Source: a virus
IMG/VR virus record: IMGVR_UViG_3300021375_000202
Span: 1-21,066 of that record
Length of the DNA stretch: 21,066 nucleotides
Reading direction: 5' to 3' (one strand)
The position numbers and the translations under genes are program-made. Shown one piece after another: positions 8,139 through 17,789 of the stretch (the stretch's first letter is position 1; each line of letters opens with the position of its first letter). The notes beneath the pieces were generated by a model, which ran no database searches, was not told the origin of the DNA, and saw only the letters and a list, made by a program, of their open reading frames with translations.

Positions 8139-8783
8139 ATGAAAACACTTATAACTTTTGGTGATAGTTGGCCACAAGGCGGAGAACTACAAGAGGATCT
8201 CGGTCAGTACCCGTACGGGCGACAACTTGCAGATCAGTATGGATTTAAGTTTTATAATTATGGTTCACCAGGTGCAAGTAACGAAGATATGGTTTTACAA
8301 CTTCTTGAATCAAAGTTAGAGAATGCAACTGCAATCTTCTTTTTAACAAACCCAGCAAGGAGCATGCATTGGCCATTGGGTATGAGTTGGCGGCATGACA
8401 GTAACGAAAGAAAACATTGGTGTTCAGATGCAAAGGATTTTGTTAAAACACTAAAATTACACTTTCATGATGACAATAAAGATACTATTAGAACAAGTAT
8501 GAGCGTAATTACACTACAACAAATGTGTAAAACACTTAACATCAACGACTATTACTTTGCAGGATGGATAAGACAAACAGATTGGCTACCTGGCGTAGAC
8601 ACTGATAAAATTTACAAAGGCGGAAATGAAACTGCGGCTGATTGGCTAGGAGCAACTGATCATAATGGCGAGCACTTACTTGGTGTACAAGATAATGAAT
8701 ACATACGTCCAAACTTTGCCCATCCTAATCATAATGGACATGCTCTAATTGCAAAAAAACTTGCAGAATGGATAAAACTATAG
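8139..8783 (+). CDS. SGNH/GDSL-type hydrolase (214 aa)
   Basis: The protein begins MKTLITFGDSW: GDSW at residues 8-11 is block I with the nucleophile Ser10. GSPGASN at 42-48 fits the Gly block, FFLTNP at 67-72 places Asn71 at the oxyanion-hole position, and AHPNHNGH at 194-201 is block V with His195. The usual Asp three residues before that His is Asn192 here, so the triad may be incomplete or the Asp replaced from elsewhere. SGNH enzymes are esterases or deacetylases acting on acyl groups of sugars, lipids or peptides. With a tail fibre gene one gene downstream, a role in modifying cell-surface polysaccharide is possible but unproven. It is homologous in layout to the second SGNH gene between nrdA and nrdB. 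It has no signal peptide. Confidence 0.8.
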   Translation: MKTLITFGDSWPQGGELQEDLGQYPYGRQLADQYGFKFYNYGSPGASNEDMVLQLLESKLENATAIFFLTNPARSMHWPLGMSWRHDSNERKHWCSDAKDFVKTLKLHFHDDNKDTIRTSMSVITLQQMCKTLNINDYYFAGWIRQTDWLPGVDTDKIYKGGNETAADWLGATDHNGEHLLGVQDNEYIRPNFAHPNHNGHALIAKKLAEWIKL

Positions 8784-8795: not shown

Positions 8796-9506
8796 ATGCT
8801 TATAGAAAAATTTCAATACAAAAATCTCTCACGTAAACAGGTCGACGGCAAGCGACTGTATTCTACTCCTGATGGCAATGCCGTGCCCAGTGTAACTACC
8901 ATACTAGGTGCTACACAATCAAAAGAAAAGCAAGAAGGTCTAGCACGATGGCGTAAACGTGTAGGCACTGACCAAGCACAAAAGATAGTTACTGAAGCTG
9001 CCAACAGAGGTACACGAATGCATACCTATTTAGAAAACTACTGTATTGATGGCACTATCAAAGAGCGTGGTAACAATCCATTCAGTTGGCAATCACATGC
9101 TATGGCACAAGCAGTAATAGAACAAGGTATGTGCAATGTTGACGAAGTATGGGGTGTTGAAGTACCCATGTACTTTCCGGGAATATATGCAGGTACAACA
9201 GACTGTGTCGGTGTACACAGCGGTGATGATGCAATCATGGATTTTAAACAATCAAACAAGCCCAAGAAAGTTGAGTGGATTGAAGATTACAAACTACAAC
9301 TTTGTGCATATGCAGAAGCACACAACGAAGTATATGGAACAAAAATACGTAAAGGTGTAGTGCTTATGGCAGTTAAGCCAGCAGTTGATGACATGGGACA
9401 TTTAAAAGAAGATCCTTTATATCAAGAGTTCGTTGTCGAAGGTGACGACTTTGAACACTGGCGTCAACAATGGTGGAAACGTGTAGAGCAGTACTACACT
9501 CAGTAA
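8796..9506 (+). CDS. PD-(D/E)XK exonuclease, RecB/MGME1-like
   Basis: The 236-aa protein shows the ordered motifs of the RecB-like PD-(D/E)XK nucleases. PSVTTILGAT is at 31-40, RGTRMHTYLENY at 71-82 (His76, Glu80), VWGVEVPM with Glu122 at 118-125, YAGTTDCVG with Asp136, IMDFKQS with Asp149 and Lys151, and the downstream helix YKLQLCAYAEA with Gln168 and Tyr172. These give the metal-binding and catalytic set of a DNA exonuclease; the early PSVTTIL and RGT..H elements recall the MGME1-like group. It probably trims or recycles DNA during replication or recombination. It has its own early-type promoter, unlike the structural genes around it, consistent with a DNA-metabolism gene. There is no Shine-Dalgarno upstream. 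Confidence 0.85.
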   Translation: MLIEKFQYKNLSRKQVDGKRLYSTPDGNAVPSVTTILGATQSKEKQEGLARWRKRVGTDQAQKIVTEAANRGTRMHTYLENYCIDGTIKERGNNPFSWQSHAMAQAVIEQGMCNVDEVWGVEVPMYFPGIYAGTTDCVGVHSGDDAIMDFKQSNKPKKVEWIEDYKLQLCAYAEAHNEVYGTKIRKGVVLMAVKPAVDDMGHLKEDPLYQEFVVEGDDFEHWRQQWWKRVEQYYTQ

Positions 9507-11408: not shown

Positions 11409-13715
11409 ATGACAATCCAAGTTACTAAGAGAGACGGAAGTAAAGAAGCATTAGACATTGAAAAATTACACAAAGTAGTGATGTGGGCAACAGAGAATAT
11501 AACCGGGGTAAGTGCAAGCCAAGTTGAAATAAGCAGTAATGTACAGTTTTATGATGGCATCACAAGTACAGACATACAGGAGACACTTATAAAAAGTGCC
11601 GCTGATTTAATATCAGAAGAAACACCAAACTATCAAACAGTTGCTGGTAGACTTATTGTATATCATATTAACAAAATGGTTTATGGTGGTGCTACGCCTT
11701 GGCATATTTACAAACTTGTAAAGCACAATGTTGAAAAGGGTTTCTATGATACAGAACTGTTAAGTGAATACACTGAAGAAGAATGGAATACCATCAACAG
11801 TTGGGTAAAACATGAACGTGATGAACAACTAACATATGCTGCCATGGAACAGTTTCGTGGCAAGTATCTTGTACAAAACAGAGTAACAAAAACACTTTAT
11901 GAAACTCCGCAAATGGCATATATGCTTATAGCGGCCACACTGTTTCAAGACTATGATCGCAAAAACAGACTGCGTTATGTAAAAGATTACTATGATGCTA
12001 TTTCAACACACCAAATTAGTTTACCAACTCCGGTAATGGCAGGAGTGCGTACACCACAAAGACAGTTTTCAAGTTGTGTACTAATAGAAACTGATGATAG
12101 TTTAGATAGTATAAATGCAACTGCAAGTTCAATTGTAAAATACGTTTCACAAAAAGCAGGCATTGGTATTAACGGTGGACGTATTAGAGCATTAGGGTCA
12201 CCTATTAGAAACGGTGATGCTTATCACACTGGCGTTGTGCCATTTTACAAAATGTTTCAAGCCGCCACACGTAGTTGTTCGCAAGGTGGAGTGCGTAACG
12301 GAGCGGCAACACTATATTATCCACTGTGGCACCTAGAAGTTGAAGACTTGTTAGTGTTGAAGAACAACAAAGGTACAGAAGACAACAGAGTTAGACACAT
12401 GGACTATGGTGTACAGTTTAACAAACTTATGTACGAACGTTTAATGTCAGGTGGAGACATTACATTGTTCTCTCCAAATGATGTTCCTGGTTTGTACGAT
12501 GCATTCTTTGCAGACCAAGACAAGTTCCGTGAATTATACGAAGCTGCTGAACGCAAGACAAGTATACGTAAGAAGAAAATAAGTGCCACAGAGTTGTTTA
12601 GTGCCTTTATGCAAGAAAGAAAAGACACAGGAAGAATATACTTGCAAAATGTAGATCATGCAAATGAGCACAGTAGTTTTAAAACAGATGTTGCACCTAT
12701 AAAGCAAAGCAACTTGTGTTGTGAAATAGACTTGCCAACCAAGCCTCTTGATGATATAAATGATGTAACCGGTGAAATTGCTTTGTGTACATTAAGTGCA
12801 ATTAACTGGGGTAGTTTTTCAAATCCAGAGGATATGGAAAAGGCATGTACACTTGCAGTACGTGGACTTGATGCACTCTTAAGTTATCAAAACTATCCAA
12901 TCATAGCCGCACAAATGGCAACGGAAGGTAGACGTCCTTTAGGTGTTGGTATAATTAATCTTGCATACTTTCTTGCAAAAAATGATACCAGTTACAGTGA
13001 TCCAGATGCACTTAAACTAGTAGATACATGGGCTCAACACTGGAGTTATTACTTGATAAAAGCAAGTGCTGATCTTGCGGAAGAGTTTGGTGCATGTCCA
13101 ATGAATAACGAAACAAAGTATTCAGATGGTGTGTTGCCAGTTGACACCTACAAGAAAGATGTTGATGAACTAGTGTTACATGTTGATGCAGTTGACTGGA
13201 CAGGATTGAGAACACAACTTAGAGAAACGGGCATACGTAATTCAACACTGATGGCACTTATGCCTGCTGAAACATCAGCACAGATAAGCAACAGTACAAA
13301 CGGCATTGAGCCACCAAGAGCATTTGTAAGTATCAAGCAAAGCAAAGATGGTGTACTTAAACAGGTTGTGCCAGGATATGCACGTTACAAAAACAAATAC
13401 GAACTACTATGGGACCAAAAGTCTCCAGAAGGTTACATAAAGATAATGGCAGTTATGCAAAAATATATTGATCAAGGCATAAGTGTAAACACGTCTTACA
13501 ACCCTGTACACTATGAAGATGAAAAGATACCAATGAGTGTAATGTTACAACATCTGCTACTATGTTATAAATACGGCCACAAGCAGTTGTATTACTTTAA
13601 CACATTTGATGGTGCTGGAGAAATCGACATAGACAAGATGAATGAAACACAACAACAAGAACTAACTATCGAAGAGCCTATGTACGAAGAAGCCTGCGAT
13701 AGTTGCACAATATAG
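11409..13715 (+). CDS. nrdA: Class Ia ribonucleoside-diphosphate reductase, large (alpha) subunit
   Basis: NrdA reduces NDPs to dNDPs with a radical passed from NrdB. The 768-aa length is normal. An ATP-cone begins the protein (VTKRDGSKEALDIEKLHKVV, residues 5-24), so allosteric activity control may be kept. Catalytic residues by position relative to E. coli: Cys223 (SSCVL) and Cys460 (ALCTLS) as the redox pair; Asn435, Cys437 and Glu439 in NLCCE; the radical-transfer tyrosines Tyr728 and Tyr729 (LYYFNTFDG). The C-terminal shuttle cysteines are Cys763 and Cys766 (CDSC). The active-site motif reads NLCCE where E. coli has NLCLE. It is the first gene after the sigma70 promoter. In this phage nrdB does not follow directly but after a gene that carries a copy of nrdB's 5' end. 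Confidence 0.97.
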   Translation: MTIQVTKRDGSKEALDIEKLHKVVMWATENITGVSASQVEISSNVQFYDGITSTDIQETLIKSAADLISEETPNYQTVAGRLIVYHINKMVYGGATPWHIYKLVKHNVEKGFYDTELLSEYTEEEWNTINSWVKHERDEQLTYAAMEQFRGKYLVQNRVTKTLYETPQMAYMLIAATLFQDYDRKNRLRYVKDYYDAISTHQISLPTPVMAGVRTPQRQFSSCVLIETDDSLDSINATASSIVKYVSQKAGIGINGGRIRALGSPIRNGDAYHTGVVPFYKMFQAATRSCSQGGVRNGAATLYYPLWHLEVEDLLVLKNNKGTEDNRVRHMDYGVQFNKLMYERLMSGGDITLFSPNDVPGLYDAFFADQDKFRELYEAAERKTSIRKKKISATELFSAFMQERKDTGRIYLQNVDHANEHSSFKTDVAPIKQSNLCCEIDLPTKPLDDINDVTGEIALCTLSAINWGSFSNPEDMEKACTLAVRGLDALLSYQNYPIIAAQMATEGRRPLGVGIINLAYFLAKNDTSYSDPDALKLVDTWAQHWSYYLIKASADLAEEFGACPMNNETKYSDGVLPVDTYKKDVDELVLHVDAVDWTGLRTQLRETGIRNSTLMALMPAETSAQISNSTNGIEPPRAFVSIKQSKDGVLKQVVPGYARYKNKYELLWDQKSPEGYIKIMAVMQKYIDQGISVNTSYNPVHYEDEKIPMSVMLQHLLLCYKYGHKQLYYFNTFDGAGEIDIDKMNETQQQELTIEEPMYEEACDSCTI

Positions 13716-13723
13716 GAAACACA

Positions 13724-13780
13724 ATGAGTGTATTGAATACAACCAATAGAGACCATACGACCAGTCTTGCATTCCTTGAT
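13724..13780 (+). repeat. Direct repeat, copy 1: duplicated first 19 codons of nrdB
   Basis: These 57 bases match 14606-14662 at 56 positions; the only difference is G at 13735 against A at 14617, a silent Leu codon change (TTG/TTA). Similarity stops after the GAT codon apart from two chance bases. Confidence 0.98.
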
Positions 13781-14605
13781 TCAATCAAGTTTAAATTTAA
13801 GCCACAATACTTTCATTCAGTAAAAAATAATTCTAATAAACTTCTTATTTGTGCTGGAGATAGCTGGACATGGGGAGATAGTTTAGGTGGTAGCAAACTA
13901 GATTCTCCAAATGTAGTTAAGGATAAACATAGGAAAGAACACATATATGGCAGTATAATTTCTAAGAAAATAAATTCAGATTTTATCAATATTGCTAAAC
14001 CTGGCGGATCGAATATTGAAATTCACGATATGTTAGCAGTGGTATTAGAAGATGCTGTTTTGGATAGCTTATATAACGAGATTCATGTCATTATATGCCT
14101 AACTGAAAATTGTAGAGAAGCATCAGGAGATCCAATCTGGGTACCATCGAATTTAGATAACATAGAAACAATAGACGATTTTCTAAAAGCATATGAACAA
14201 AACATGTTTTTGTCTTTAAGAGAAAATTTTATAGACAAGTATCCTGATATAAACTTTTATATTGGCAGAAATTTTACCTTTTCCTATGATGAAACTATAT
14301 TAGGAGATAATGTGTTAGATAAATTGTGGATTCAATGTTTAGAAATAAACGAGCCGTATCCAGAAGATGTGCGTTTTACTTCGGATATAGCAATAACTCC
14401 ATTGATAACGTGTTTGATAAAACTCGGCATTCATAAAAAATTAAAATATACGTTGATGGAATTTTTTGCTCGTAGTAATTTGGCGGTAGATTGGTTAGAG
14501 AAGAGTCCGTTAAACTATAACGAAGAGACCAAACATCCTACCGAAAAAGGACACGAAATTTATGCAAATTACATATATAATAAAATAAAGGAAAGAATAG
14601 AATAG
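13724..14605 (+). CDS. SGNH-hydrolase-like protein with an NrdB-derived N-terminal leader (293 aa), inserted between nrdA and nrdB
   Basis: Residues 1-19 (MSVLNTTNRD...SLAFLD) are identical to the first 19 residues of NrdB; from residue 20 on the protein is unrelated to NrdB. The body has SGNH blocks: LLICAGDSWTWGDSL with Ser47, PGGSN at 93-97, CLTEN at 125-129 with Asn129, and KHPTEKGH at 270-277 with His271; Glu268 stands at the usual Asp position. The start at 13724 is chosen because it carries the ribosome-binding site AGGAAA and the NrdB-like beginning; an in-frame ATG at 13703 lies inside nrdA. The body has no in-frame ATG of its own until residue 103, so it depends on the borrowed start. 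Composition is more AT-rich than its neighbours. TAG abuts the nrdB ATG. The substrate is unknown; esterase or deacetylase by family. Confidence 0.8.
   Translation: MSVLNTTNRDHTTSLAFLDSIKFKFKPQYFHSVKNNSNKLLICAGDSWTWGDSLGGSKLDSPNVVKDKHRKEHIYGSIISKKINSDFINIAKPGGSNIEIHDMLAVVLEDAVLDSLYNEIHVIICLTENCREASGDPIWVPSNLDNIETIDDFLKAYEQNMFLSLRENFIDKYPDINFYIGRNFTFSYDETILGDNVLDKLWIQCLEINEPYPEDVRFTSDIAITPLITCLIKLGIHKKLKYTLMEFFARSNLAVDWLEKSPLNYNEETKHPTEKGHEIYANYIYNKIKERIE
13781..14605 (+). other. Inserted segment between the nrdB 5'-end repeats
   Basis: This 825-base segment lies between the two repeat copies; repeat plus segment is 882 bases, exactly 294 codons. It codes for the SGNH body up to its stop. Hand counts on three sample 60-base lines gave 16-21 G+C, against 21-28 in sampled nrdA and nrdB lines, supporting a foreign origin. 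No integrase, transposase or homing endonuclease is in it. Confidence 0.7.
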
Positions 14606-14662
14606 ATGAGTGTATTAAATACAACCAATAGAGACCATACGACCAGTCTTGCATTCCTTGAT
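14606..14662 (+). repeat. Direct repeat, copy 2: authentic nrdB 5' end
   Basis: This is the second copy of the 57-base repeat, continuing into the conserved NrdB sequence (PAGGVGIQRYD...). The ribosome-binding site for it, AAGGAAAG at 14588-14595, lies in the inserted segment. Confidence 0.98.
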
Positions 14663-15730
14663 CCAGCAGGCGGAGTTGGAATACAACGTTATGATACCCT
14701 AAAGTACAGACAGTTTGATAAACTAACCGACAAGCAGTTGGGTTTCTTTTGGAGACCAGAAGAAGTAGATGTACTACGTGATGCAAAAGACTTTAAAGAG
14801 CTTACTGCCAATGAAAAGCATATCTTTACTAGCAATCTCAAAAGACAAATACTTTTGGATAGTGTACAAGGTAGAGCACCAATTGAGGCATTTGGTCCTA
14901 TTGTGAGTTTGCCTGAGTTGGAAAACTGGATTATCACTTGGACGTTTAGTGAAACAATACATTCAAAAAGTTACACACACATCATCCGTAATGTATATGC
15001 AAATCCAAGCAAGGTGTTTGATGAGATGATGGACATACAGGAGATTATTGACTGTGGAGAAGACATCACTGCATACTATGATGATTTAGTAGAAACTTGC
15101 AGTTACTACAACTTACTAGGTGAAGGTACACACACTGTAAACGGCAAAAAAGTCAAAATTGATCTATATGAACTAAAAAAGAAACTGTGGATTTGTTTGG
15201 CAAGTGTTAACATTTTAGAAGGTGTACGTTTTTATGTATCCTTTGCTTGTAGTTGGGCGTTTGCTGAACTTAAAAAGATGGAAGGTAATGCTAAGATTAT
15301 CAAGTTTATTGCACGAGATGAGAATGTACATCTAGCAAGCACACAACAACTTATGAAGATACTTCCACAAGATGATCCAGACTTTGTTAAAATAAAAGCA
15401 GAGTGTGAGCCACTTGTAATTAAGATGTTTGAAGATGCAGTGGAACAAGAATGTGCATGGGCTGACTATTTGTTTAAGGATGGTTCAATGATTGGACTTA
15501 ATGCACAGTTGCTTAAAGAATATGTACAATGGATTGCAAACAAACGTATGACCGCAGTTGGTGTACCGAGTAGTTATAAAGGAGCATCAAACCCACTACC
15601 ATGGACACAAAAGTGGATTGCAGGTGGTGATGTACAGGTAGCTCCACAGGAAACTGAGATAACTAGTTATGTTAACGGCGGAACAAAACAAGACGTAGAT
15701 AAAAATAGCTTTGCAGGATTTAGTTTATGA
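14606..15730 (+). CDS. nrdB: Class Ia ribonucleoside-diphosphate reductase, small (beta) subunit
   Basis: NrdB holds the diiron centre and tyrosyl radical for NrdA. All ligands are present, each one residue later than in E. coli NrdB: Asp85 (LLDSVQGR), Glu116 and His119 (SETIHS), radical Tyr123 (SYTHIIRN), Glu205 (NILEGVRF), Glu239 and His242 (RDENVHL). FFWRPEEVDV at 48-57 and the C-terminal tail ending NSFAGFSL, which docks into NrdA, are also typical. At 374 aa the length is normal and the gene looks intact despite the insertion just upstream. Its first 19 residues are duplicated as the leader of the SGNH gene; they precede the conserved core. The TGA stop overlaps the glutaredoxin ATG (ATGA). 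Confidence 0.97.
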   Translation: MSVLNTTNRDHTTSLAFLDPAGGVGIQRYDTLKYRQFDKLTDKQLGFFWRPEEVDVLRDAKDFKELTANEKHIFTSNLKRQILLDSVQGRAPIEAFGPIVSLPELENWIITWTFSETIHSKSYTHIIRNVYANPSKVFDEMMDIQEIIDCGEDITAYYDDLVETCSYYNLLGEGTHTVNGKKVKIDLYELKKKLWICLASVNILEGVRFYVSFACSWAFAELKKMEGNAKIIKFIARDENVHLASTQQLMKILPQDDPDFVKIKAECEPLVIKMFEDAVEQECAWADYLFKDGSMIGLNAQLLKEYVQWIANKRMTAVGVPSSYKGASNPLPWTQKWIAGGDVQVAPQETEITSYVNGGTKQDVDKNSFAGFSL

Positions 15731-15975: not shown

Positions 15976-15983
15976 GTAGTAGC

Positions 15984-17204
15984 ATGAATTACAACATTTG
16001 GAATAAATGGGACAAGCTCCAAACAGTAATGCTTGGCGATTGTTATAGCAGTAGATTCTTTAGAGATATTAAAAATACTAAAGTACGATCAGCACTAGAA
16101 CGAATTGCCGACGAAACACAAGAAGACTTAGAATGTTTCTATCATATTCTAAAAGACTTTGGTTGCAATATTATTAGACCAAAGTTAGATACAAATGATA
16201 GCATAATGAATTACACTGATCACGACGGAAACTTAAAATCAATACCTCGTGGTCCTTTACAACCTCGTGATGCACAGGTAGTAATAGGCAATAGTTTGTT
16301 ATATGTTGGTGATGATCATCCAAGTATTACAAACAAATTAGACGAATACGATAAGAATTATAAAAACATCAAAACACCTATTCCTAAAAAAAATTATCTT
16401 GACTACATGGGTGATGGTGCTCCAGACTGGCCATCATATGATGAACTAGTGAATAGATTTTTTAATAATGAACCACTTAGTAATGATATTAATATTAATA
16501 GAGAATTATTAGAGATATCAGCAAAGGAAGTACAGAAAAAACGCCATACATTTCCTGTGGCAGCTCCGAGTATTACTGTGGTTGGCAAAGACATCTATAT
16601 TGATATTCCAATGGATATGCCAGAGATATTACTTAACCACTGCATTAAAAAATTTAATACGGAGTATGCAGACTTCCGTGTAAACAATCTAAGGCATGGC
16701 GGACACAGTGATGGTTGCTTTCACACTATCAAACCTGGTGCAATATTAAGTTTACAAGAAATTCAAACCTATGAAGATACTTTTCCAGGATGGGACGTTT
16801 GCTATCTTCCTGATCAAAGTTGGGATAAAGTTAAGCCATTTGTTGAACTTAAAAACGAAGGCAAATGGTGGGTGCCGGGGGAAGAAAATAATCCTGCGTT
16901 TACACATTTTGTAGAAACCTGGCTTCAAGATTGGGTTGGCTATGTTCAAGAAACAGTATTTGATGTAAATGTACTTGTACTTGATGAACATCATGTATGC
17001 GTAAGTCAACCTGATAATGAGATTGTAAATACGTTTCTTAAGAAACACAATATGGAACCTGTGTATGTGCCGTGGCGTCATAGGTATTTTTGGGATGGTG
17101 GTCTGCATTGTATAACACTAGATCTAAAAAGGCAAGGCACACAACAAGACTATTTTCCAAATAGAAATAACCCAATAATTGATAAAGGATTTAACTATGC
17201 TTGA
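15984..17204 (+). CDS. Amidinotransferase family protein (arginine:glycine amidinotransferase-like)
   Basis: The 406-aa protein has the pattern of the amidinotransferase/guanidino-modifying superfamily. It opens with WDKLQTVMLGDCYSSRFF (9-26). PLQPRDAQVVIGNSLL (91-106) carries the catalytic Asp96, HGGHSDGCFHTIKPG (238-252) the His241-x-Asp243 element, and WDGGLHCITLDLKRQGTQ (370-387) the nucleophile Cys376. The last block closely follows the GGGFHCWT..RR.GT element I recall from arginine:glycine amidinotransferase. Such enzymes move an amidino group from arginine to an amine; the acceptor here is unknown. The start at 15984 is preferred over the in-frame ATG at 15930, which lies inside glutaredoxin. 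It sits at the end of the nrd run, so it is a candidate auxiliary metabolic gene. Confidence 0.85.
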   Translation: MNYNIWNKWDKLQTVMLGDCYSSRFFRDIKNTKVRSALERIADETQEDLECFYHILKDFGCNIIRPKLDTNDSIMNYTDHDGNLKSIPRGPLQPRDAQVVIGNSLLYVGDDHPSITNKLDEYDKNYKNIKTPIPKKNYLDYMGDGAPDWPSYDELVNRFFNNEPLSNDININRELLEISAKEVQKKRHTFPVAAPSITVVGKDIYIDIPMDMPEILLNHCIKKFNTEYADFRVNNLRHGGHSDGCFHTIKPGAILSLQEIQTYEDTFPGWDVCYLPDQSWDKVKPFVELKNEGKWWVPGEENNPAFTHFVETWLQDWVGYVQETVFDVNVLVLDEHHVCVSQPDNEIVNTFLKKHNMEPVYVPWRHRYFWDGGLHCITLDLKRQGTQQDYFPNRNNPIIDKGFNYA

Positions 17205-17495: not shown

Positions 17496-17789
17496 ATGCC
17501 AGGAGCAGTAAGAATAGGTGATGTAAACTCAGCAGGTGGAGCCGCAATAGGTTCTGGTGCAAGCAGTGTGATTATCAATGGCAGGGCCGCCTGTTTAGTA
17601 GGAACATCTGTGACACCTCATCCATGTTGCGGAGCTCCAGGTTGTGGAATACACTGTAGTGCAAAAACAACACTTGGTTCAATGAGTGTGATTGCAGAAA
17701 ACAAACCAATTAACTATGTCGGATCACCAGATACTTGTGGACATTCACGAGCAAATGGTAGCAATGACGTAATAATACCACGAGGTTAG
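17496..17789 (+). CDS. PAAR-motif baseplate spike-tip protein
   Basis: The 97-aa protein starts MPGAVRIGDVNSAGGAAIGS and continues with SSVIINGRAACLVG, CCGAPGCGIHCSA and SPDTCGHSRANGSNDVIIPRG. The order of short Gly-rich strand-turns with His and Cys residues is the PAAR repeat fold, a small cone that caps the central spike of contractile tails (T4 gp5.4) and type VI secretion. His61, Cys62 and nearby Cys/His residues are suited to binding the metal that sharpens the tip. Size is typical. It is two bases after the Sm-like gene and one base before the 710-aa protein, so these are probably made together for baseplate assembly. Confidence 0.88.
   Translation: MPGAVRIGDVNSAGGAAIGSGASSVIINGRAACLVGTSVTPHPCCGAPGCGIHCSAKTTLGSMSVIAENKPINYVGSPDTCGHSRANGSNDVIIPRG

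Follow-up and report, generated by a model that had tools for sequence, protein, structure and literature searches.

A predicted SGNH-hydrolase gene at the nrdA-nrdB junction of uncultured phages begins with a copy of the nrdB start

Introduction

In phage T4, mobE is located between nrdA and nrdB; according to the cited portions of two reports, its start overlaps the nrdA stop and translational coupling has been proposed for it (PMC2988022, PMC3653736). Duplicated gene ends are described, in the cited part of a further study, for the mobile-ORF hybrids of the fungal mitochondrial genes atp6, atp9, cox2 and nad3, where the 3' end is duplicated, a homing endonuclease is encoded and the foreign end completes the essential gene (PMC3630166). 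Phage genomes are also subject to domain mosaicism, in which fragments are shared by unrelated proteins, ribonucleotide reductases included, as stated in the section cited (PMC10684548).

The locus described here lies in a stretch of 21,066 nucleotides (the window), corresponding to positions 1 to 21,066 of the IMG/VR virus record IMGVR_UViG_3300021375_000202. As in the cited accounts of mobE, an extra, promoterless gene is placed at the nrdA-nrdB junction, outside the reading frames of both genes. Unlike mobE, the insert encodes a predicted hydrolase and not a nuclease (an SGNH-like fold is predicted and no nuclease domain was matched), and its own 5' end is a copy of that of nrdB, preceded by a ribosome-binding site. 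It shares with the fungal mobile ORFs, as presented in the cited part of PMC3630166, the duplication of one end of an essential gene and the resulting in-frame hybrid, whereas in the phage the 5' end is duplicated, no nuclease was matched and the copy heads an unrelated gene. Compared with that partial account, the arrangement would be a mirror image of the fungal 3'-end duplication, without a nuclease match. It differs from general domain mosaicism in that donor and recipient adjoin and what they share is the region of the translation start. The body of the chimera belongs to the GDSWTWG SGNH family of uncultured phages (L205-L277), with which it shares the GDSW and HP blocks; unlike the chimera, the other tested members keep a variable N-terminus of their own and copy no start from their locus.

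Results

The nrdB start is present twice

The genes and sites of the locus are as follows (window coordinates):

11409..13715, + strand: nrdA, class Ia ribonucleotide reductase large subunit, the intact upstream neighbour (Pfam Ribonuc_red_lgC, 8.1e-126)
13714..13718, + strand: AGGAA, putative ribosome-binding site for the chimera, native to the intergenic region and overlapping the nrdA stop (anti-SD duplex -4.2 kcal/mol)
13724..13780, + strand: upstream copy of the first 19 nrdB codons, forming the N-terminus of the chimera (56/57 identity to 14606-14662)
13781..14605, + strand: predicted SGNH/GDSL-hydrolase body, fused in frame and ending in a TAG stop (273 residues from 13784)
13856..13867, + strand: GDSW block with the presumed catalytic serine, residue 47 (G45, D46, S47 and W48 invariant in 41 aligned sequences, which were chosen by the GDSW motif and are thus invariant partly by construction)
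14534..14539, + strand: HP block with the presumed catalytic histidine, residue 271 (H271 and P272 conserved in at least 90% of the 41 sequences)
14588..14593, + strand: AAGGAA in the last codons of the chimera, presumed ribosome-binding site of nrdB (anti-SD duplex -5.6 kcal/mol)
14606..14662, + strand: downstream copy, the first 19 codons of the intact nrdB (sequence comparison)
14606..15730, + strand: nrdB, class Ia ribonucleotide reductase small subunit, intact (Pfam Ribonuc_red_sm, 1e-46; PHROG 86, 1.8e-143)

Bases 13724-13780 and 14606-14662 are identical at 56/57 positions, with a single silent TTG/TTA change (blastn and codon comparison); a repeat search of the window returned the same element as a direct repeat of 60 nt at 97% (13724-13783 / 14606-14665, spacing 882). 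About 1e-22 chance pairs of the 57-base kind are expected in the window by a simple random-sequence estimate. The upstream copy opens a chimeric ORF of 293 residues (13724-14605), whose first 19 codons are those of nrdB bar the silent change and whose TAG stop (14603-14605) abuts the nrdB ATG at 14606. Both in the window and in a related contig, L002 (IMGVR_UViG_3300020165_002362), the next in-frame ATG of the chimera after that of residue 1 comes at residue 103, and between codons 4 and 106 neither GTG nor TTG occurs in frame. The GDS motif occupies residues 45-47 (GDSW 45-48) and would be lost with a later start. Because there is no alternative start before codon 103 and GDSW lies at residues 45-48, the nrdB start would be the only plausible start of an active hydrolase.

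These results agree with an earlier note on this DNA, which had described the repeated nrdB start with its single silent change and spacing of 882, an upstream copy running in frame into an SGNH-like body with no in-frame ATG until residue 103, and an insert lacking a homing nuclease. The body was corroborated by its predicted fold and SGNH structural neighbours (see below), and no homing nuclease was matched in the insert in Pfam, PHROGs or NCBIfam. The note had also proposed that the newcomer uses the ribosome-binding site and start of nrdB; both are available to the chimera, as judged from the anti-SD duplex and the absence of another early start, and the AGGAA has the same position in the empty-site relatives L005-L007. 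Over 13500-14800, 4 promoter-like sites were counted (5.9 expected), and no terminator-like site was found within the insert, the sole one in this range being inside nrdB. As read from the sequence, the chimera fits the note's idea of translation from the nrdB start with nrdB left whole: it would be translated from the native nrdA-nrdB ribosome-binding site and the nrdB start codon, and nrdB probably from a site of its own, with added coupling to the stop of the chimera.

The body is a predicted SGNH/GDSL-type hydrolase under purifying selection

The GDSW family was found by a motif scan of viral contigs (74 stretches in all). The chimera body is 43-44% identical to its best members (L229, L226, L252 and L276). 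Since family members align with the chimera only from about its residues 26-29 onwards, the replaced part would be the native N-terminus; the first 40 or so residues of the family are variable, and it is this variable segment that the NrdB-derived residues would replace. The aspartate three residues ahead of H271 is not conserved in the 41 sequences. An AlphaFold2 model of the chimera, built with the 41-sequence alignment, reached a pLDDT of 90.3 and a pTM of 0.90, with residues 1-8 below a pLDDT of 50 and a helix predicted at 14-24, about half of it NrdB-derived. In Foldseek searches against the PDB, CE2 esterases and GDSL lipases ranked top (best E 3.5e-4, listed TM-scores of at most 0.55); in BFVD the top match was an uncharacterized phage protein (E 3e-17, TMq 0.75), and SGNH-annotated proteins were among the weaker matches. 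The chimera had no Pfam, PHROGs or NCBIfam match at E 0.01, and its relative L229 had only a sub-threshold match in Pfam, to DUF6071. Fold and motifs together point to an SGNH/GDSL-type hydrolase, the activity being presumed.

Compared with L002, the body has a dN/dS of 0.276 (Fisher p 5e-5) and therefore encodes a protein under purifying selection. Its GC content is 30.8% vs 38.2% for the window, and its GC3 of 25.5% is within the range of its neighbours; composition is at most a weak hint of a foreign origin. Elsewhere in the family, L215 (3822-7229 and 10619-11446) carries a native-form GDSW gene 3.4 kb downstream of its nrdA-nrdB pair, with 42% identity to the chimera body.

The arrangement recurs in other contigs

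Both junctions of the insert are spanned by two further contigs: L001 (IMGVR_UViG_3300021378_000329), with 3 mismatches to the window in 12,939 aligned bases, and L002, which is 91.7% identical to the window over 6.3 kb. The distinct lineages known to carry the chimera thus number two, the window's and that of L002. Direct repeats can cause misassembly, and the arrangement is known from contigs, not from reads; nevertheless, an artefact of a misjoined repeat is extremely improbable given both junctions in two other contigs, one of them just 91.7% identical, and a body under purifying selection. Judged from assembled contigs, the arrangement is real and not peculiar to one contig.

In L002 the repeat is longer, with 71 nt at 87%: it starts in the region of the nrdA stop, takes in the ribosome-binding site and ends at codon 19. 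The counterpart of the AAGGAA at 14588..14593 lies within it. The L002 chimera stop overlaps the nrdB start (ATGA), whereas in the window the two abut and 7 more bases precede the nrdB ATG. Aligned by eye, the end of the L002 chimera (ATA AAG GAA CGA CAA TGA) is in register with the intergenic ATA TAG GAA ACA CAA TGA. The direct repeats of 57-71 nt that bracket the insert would be expected of a transposon-like insertion with a long target-site duplication. This origin is nonetheless very unlikely: a Pfam scan of 19 window ORFs matched no transposase or integrase; of 46 inverted repeats of at least 20 nt, 25 were listed and none of these brackets the insert; and SGNH family members at other sites have no such repeats. 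Upstream of the insert, nrdA is mosaic relative to L002, with 97.5-100% identity over 11505-12304 and 84.5-94.5% from there to 13504, which marks a recombination boundary.

Close relatives retain the empty site

In the closest relatives (L005, L006 and L007, with NrdB identities of 93-97%), nrdA and nrdB are separated by a gap of 9 bases, and the SGNH body was absent from 80/80 NrdB loci compared (tblastn, E 1e-3). Trees were built from nrdB (14 sequences, first 25 codon columns removed) and from the C-terminal 330 codons of nrdA (13 sequences). The window and L002 grouped together in both (support 0.989 and 0.874, respectively), beside the empty-site pair L005 and L006, with L007 and L008 outside. 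Because the trees put the window and L002 beside empty-site relatives, the insertion is, on this phylogenetic evidence, derived and probably a single event. An insertion at the nrdA-nrdB junction with nrdB intact, as the earlier note had it, is thus matched by insertion-free relatives, but it is not brand new, since it is common to the window and L002 lineages and the two L002 copies differ at 7/57 sites.

The nrdA-nrdB junction is a recurrent cargo site

Inserts were found at 23/159 distinct nrdA-nrdB junctions, in a sample biased towards relatives of the window NrdB; the gap was at most 150 nt at the other 136. Among sampled phage loci, the junction is a recurrent cargo site. The chimera accounts for two of the 23 (window and L002), and seven SGNH-like genes are of the GCSW type. 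Isocitrate-lyase genes occupy five junctions (one shared with another insert), PGDYG-domain genes six (two shared) and Asp/Asn-hydroxylase genes two (one shared); the remaining two junctions of other type are L093 and L057. The insert of L022 was classed as SGNH-like on two motifs alone, GCSF and HP. Pfam typing covered one representative each of isocitrate lyase, PGDYG and hydroxylase, all above the Pfam cut-off, plus L135 (DUF6071, sub-threshold only), L057 (Methyltransf_34, sub-threshold only) and L022 (no Pfam match), the other inserts being typed by eye. The isocitrate-lyase-like inserts, 401 residues long, are those of L097, L108, L117, L156 and L122 (Pfam ICL, 2.4e-102 for L108; the rest by eye).

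The seven GCSW genes match the profile of the chimera family with E-values of 7.7e-11 to 3.8e-17 in a search of 8 sequences, L022 not being among the matches; taken together with L022, they gave an hhalign probability of 98.9%. AAAGGAA in the last codons, a presumed nrdB ribosome-binding site, and an ATGA overlap with nrdB are common to L002 and to 5/7 GCSW cassettes (L163, L204, L174, L099 and L135), and for this reason the right joint of the chimera looks ordinary. On the left, the anti-SD duplex is -3.9 to -7.3 kcal/mol at the five isocitrate-lyase junctions and -3.9 kcal/mol in L193, whereas it is 0.3-0.4 kcal/mol in 6/7 GCSW cassettes (L188, -3.6 kcal/mol). No match of more than 58% over 45 nt to the insert's own nrdB start was found in 21/23 junction inserts. 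As far as these comparisons go, a left-hand ribosome-binding site is common to other inserts and the copied codons are unique to the chimera.

Origin of the chimera

The pattern requires one unusual event, the left joint, since the right joint matches ordinary cassettes. The explanation we favour, and consider probable, is the acquisition of cargo with a single illegitimate joint, of nrdB codon 19 to a 5'-truncated SGNH gene, followed later by conversion. An SGNH/GDSL-type gene would have entered the nrdA-nrdB junction in the common ancestor of the window and L002 phages. At the left joint, the truncated gene would have been joined in frame to nrdB codon 19; at the right, the cassette would end in the ordinary way, with a ribosome-binding site and a stop overlapping or abutting the intact nrdB start. 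The simplest route would be a cross between an empty-junction recipient and a donor with the order nrdA-SGNH-nrdB, in which an illegitimate crossover on the left and a homologous one within nrdB on the right would suffice in one step. Among the 63 GDSW genes kept (see below), none in native form lies between nrdA and nrdB, as it would in the donor; the only ones on loci with nrd genes are the three chimeras (window, L259 and L002) and that of L215, which comes nearest to such a donor.

Alternatively, an ordinary SGNH cassette with its own start may have arrived first, its ribosome-binding site and opening codons being overwritten afterwards by ectopic conversion from the adjacent nrdB. In other phages the junction does hold ordinary SGNH-like cassettes that have a start of their own, and later conversion between copies is indicated at the same locus (see below). 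Yet the starts of the cassette and of nrdB would share little homology, which would call for conversion through non-homologous sequence, and 6/7 GCSW cassettes have no left ribosome-binding site; we regard this two-step course as rather unlikely.

The copied 5' end could also have been imported with the element from a different phage, by analogy with the fungal mitochondrial mobile ORFs, for which the cited part of PMC3630166 gives a precedent of a foreign gene end on a mobile ORF. The 7/57 differences between the L002 copies equal those between the nrdB genes of L002 and L006 (7). However, the upstream copies have at least 9 differences from each of 157 other junction loci, the nearest being L006 and L007 of the same neighbourhood, and the insert has no nuclease match, leaving an import improbable.

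History of the two copies

Under the preferred explanation, cargo acquisition through one illegitimate joint, the copies would later have become nearly identical in the window lineage. They differ at 1 site in the window and at 7 of 57 in L002; where the four copies fall into two pairs, the pairs follow the genome at 2 sites and the position at 0. At sites 39, 52 and 54, the window nrdB agrees with both chimera copies and differs from the L002 nrdB; at sites 52 and 54 it is unlike the nrdB of L005, L006, L007 and L002, the same bases being found in L008. Site 19, another of the sites concerned, varies among empty-site relatives too (G in L005, A in L006 and L007). On this handful of sites in 57 bases, the window copies look homogenised by gene conversion, which better explains their near-identity, and the conversion, later and ectopic, probably ran from the chimera copy onto the nrdB 5' end, a direction held with moderate confidence.

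The synonymous divergence between the window and L002 is 0.139 in the body, vs 0.348 in nrdB and 0.303 in nrdA (p 0.0008 and 0.002), and about 0.44 in the first 19 codons of either gene. The low value for the body suggests that it passed between the lineages after their split; it fits poorly with simple joint descent and would count against the explanation favoured here.

Copied starts in other genes

A test of the family used those 63 genes (54 distinct proteins), out of 75 motif hits, in which the motif lies 15-70 residues from the start. The start-copy score against another ORF start in the locus was 91-96 in 3/63 (window, L259 and L002) and at most 38 in the other 60; a copied 5' end as a habit of these SGNH genes was rejected on these grounds. 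A wider scan, of 277 loci that overlap in part, covered 5,092 ORF starts (ATG, at least 60 aa, both strands, mechanical ORFs), with a match of 75% over 45 nt in the 3 kb upstream as the criterion. Beyond the chimera it returned one match, in L058, which was taken for a tandem repeat inside one ORF and set aside as a copied start.

When viral contigs were searched with pattern seeds from the chimera or its body, L001/L085 and L002 were the only matches; in GTDB genomes neither the body nor the family alignment had any. Such seeds can miss relatives (the SGNH family surfaced in viral contigs only through the motif scan). In INPHARED, the chimera had no tblastn match at E 1, and there was one weak match to the family member L229. 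A wide pattern, for starts that resemble that of NrdB but lack the proline after it, met at least 119 stretches; the matches listed were ordinary or contig-end-cut NrdBs (L086 and L158) and did not include the known chimeras, so that the scan is not exhaustive. The complete matches of a narrower NrdB-start pattern were L001/L259 and L002, plus two ordinary NrdBs (L157 and L278). In the open-access literature, which is not all print, no paper was found on a phage gene with a copied neighbour start, nor anything relevant on homing-nuclease insertions with duplicated ends.

The earlier note had gone further, to a gene-capture route, and had suggested a search for other genes carrying a copied essential-gene 5' end. 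The arrangement is confined to one clade, 60/63 family genes and 21/23 junction inserts have no copied start, and the 5,092 ORF starts yielded no comparable case. As a general route, gene capture is unsupported.

Discussion

The chimera looks like a single rare event maintained by selection, and offers a well-preserved case of the way in which a phage cargo gene can come to be expressed on arrival, with relatives in the empty-site state, in the filled state and with the repeat at two degrees of divergence. It also indicates that in uncultured phages the nrdA-nrdB junction, where T4 has mobE, is a wider cargo site. It is doubtful that a 5'-broken or foreign gene can obtain translation at once by copying the start of the essential gene beside it, with the essential gene left whole. 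If it can, the long direct repeat makes the insertion exactly reversible, and through gene conversion the newcomer's copy can replace the 5' end of the essential gene itself.

Several other genes of the window may be recorded. A second, distinct SGNH/GDSL-like gene (GDSWPQG) lies at 8139-8783, with sub-threshold Pfam GDSL matches, and is followed at 8796-9506, outside the insert, by a PD-(D/E)XK-family protein just over the Pfam cut-off. A 407-residue protein at 15981-17204 has PHROG 25854 (unknown function) as its sole match, with none in Pfam or NCBIfam. The small PAAR-motif protein encoded at 17496-17789 (PHROG 281; NCBIfam match sub-threshold) is probably part of the tail tip.
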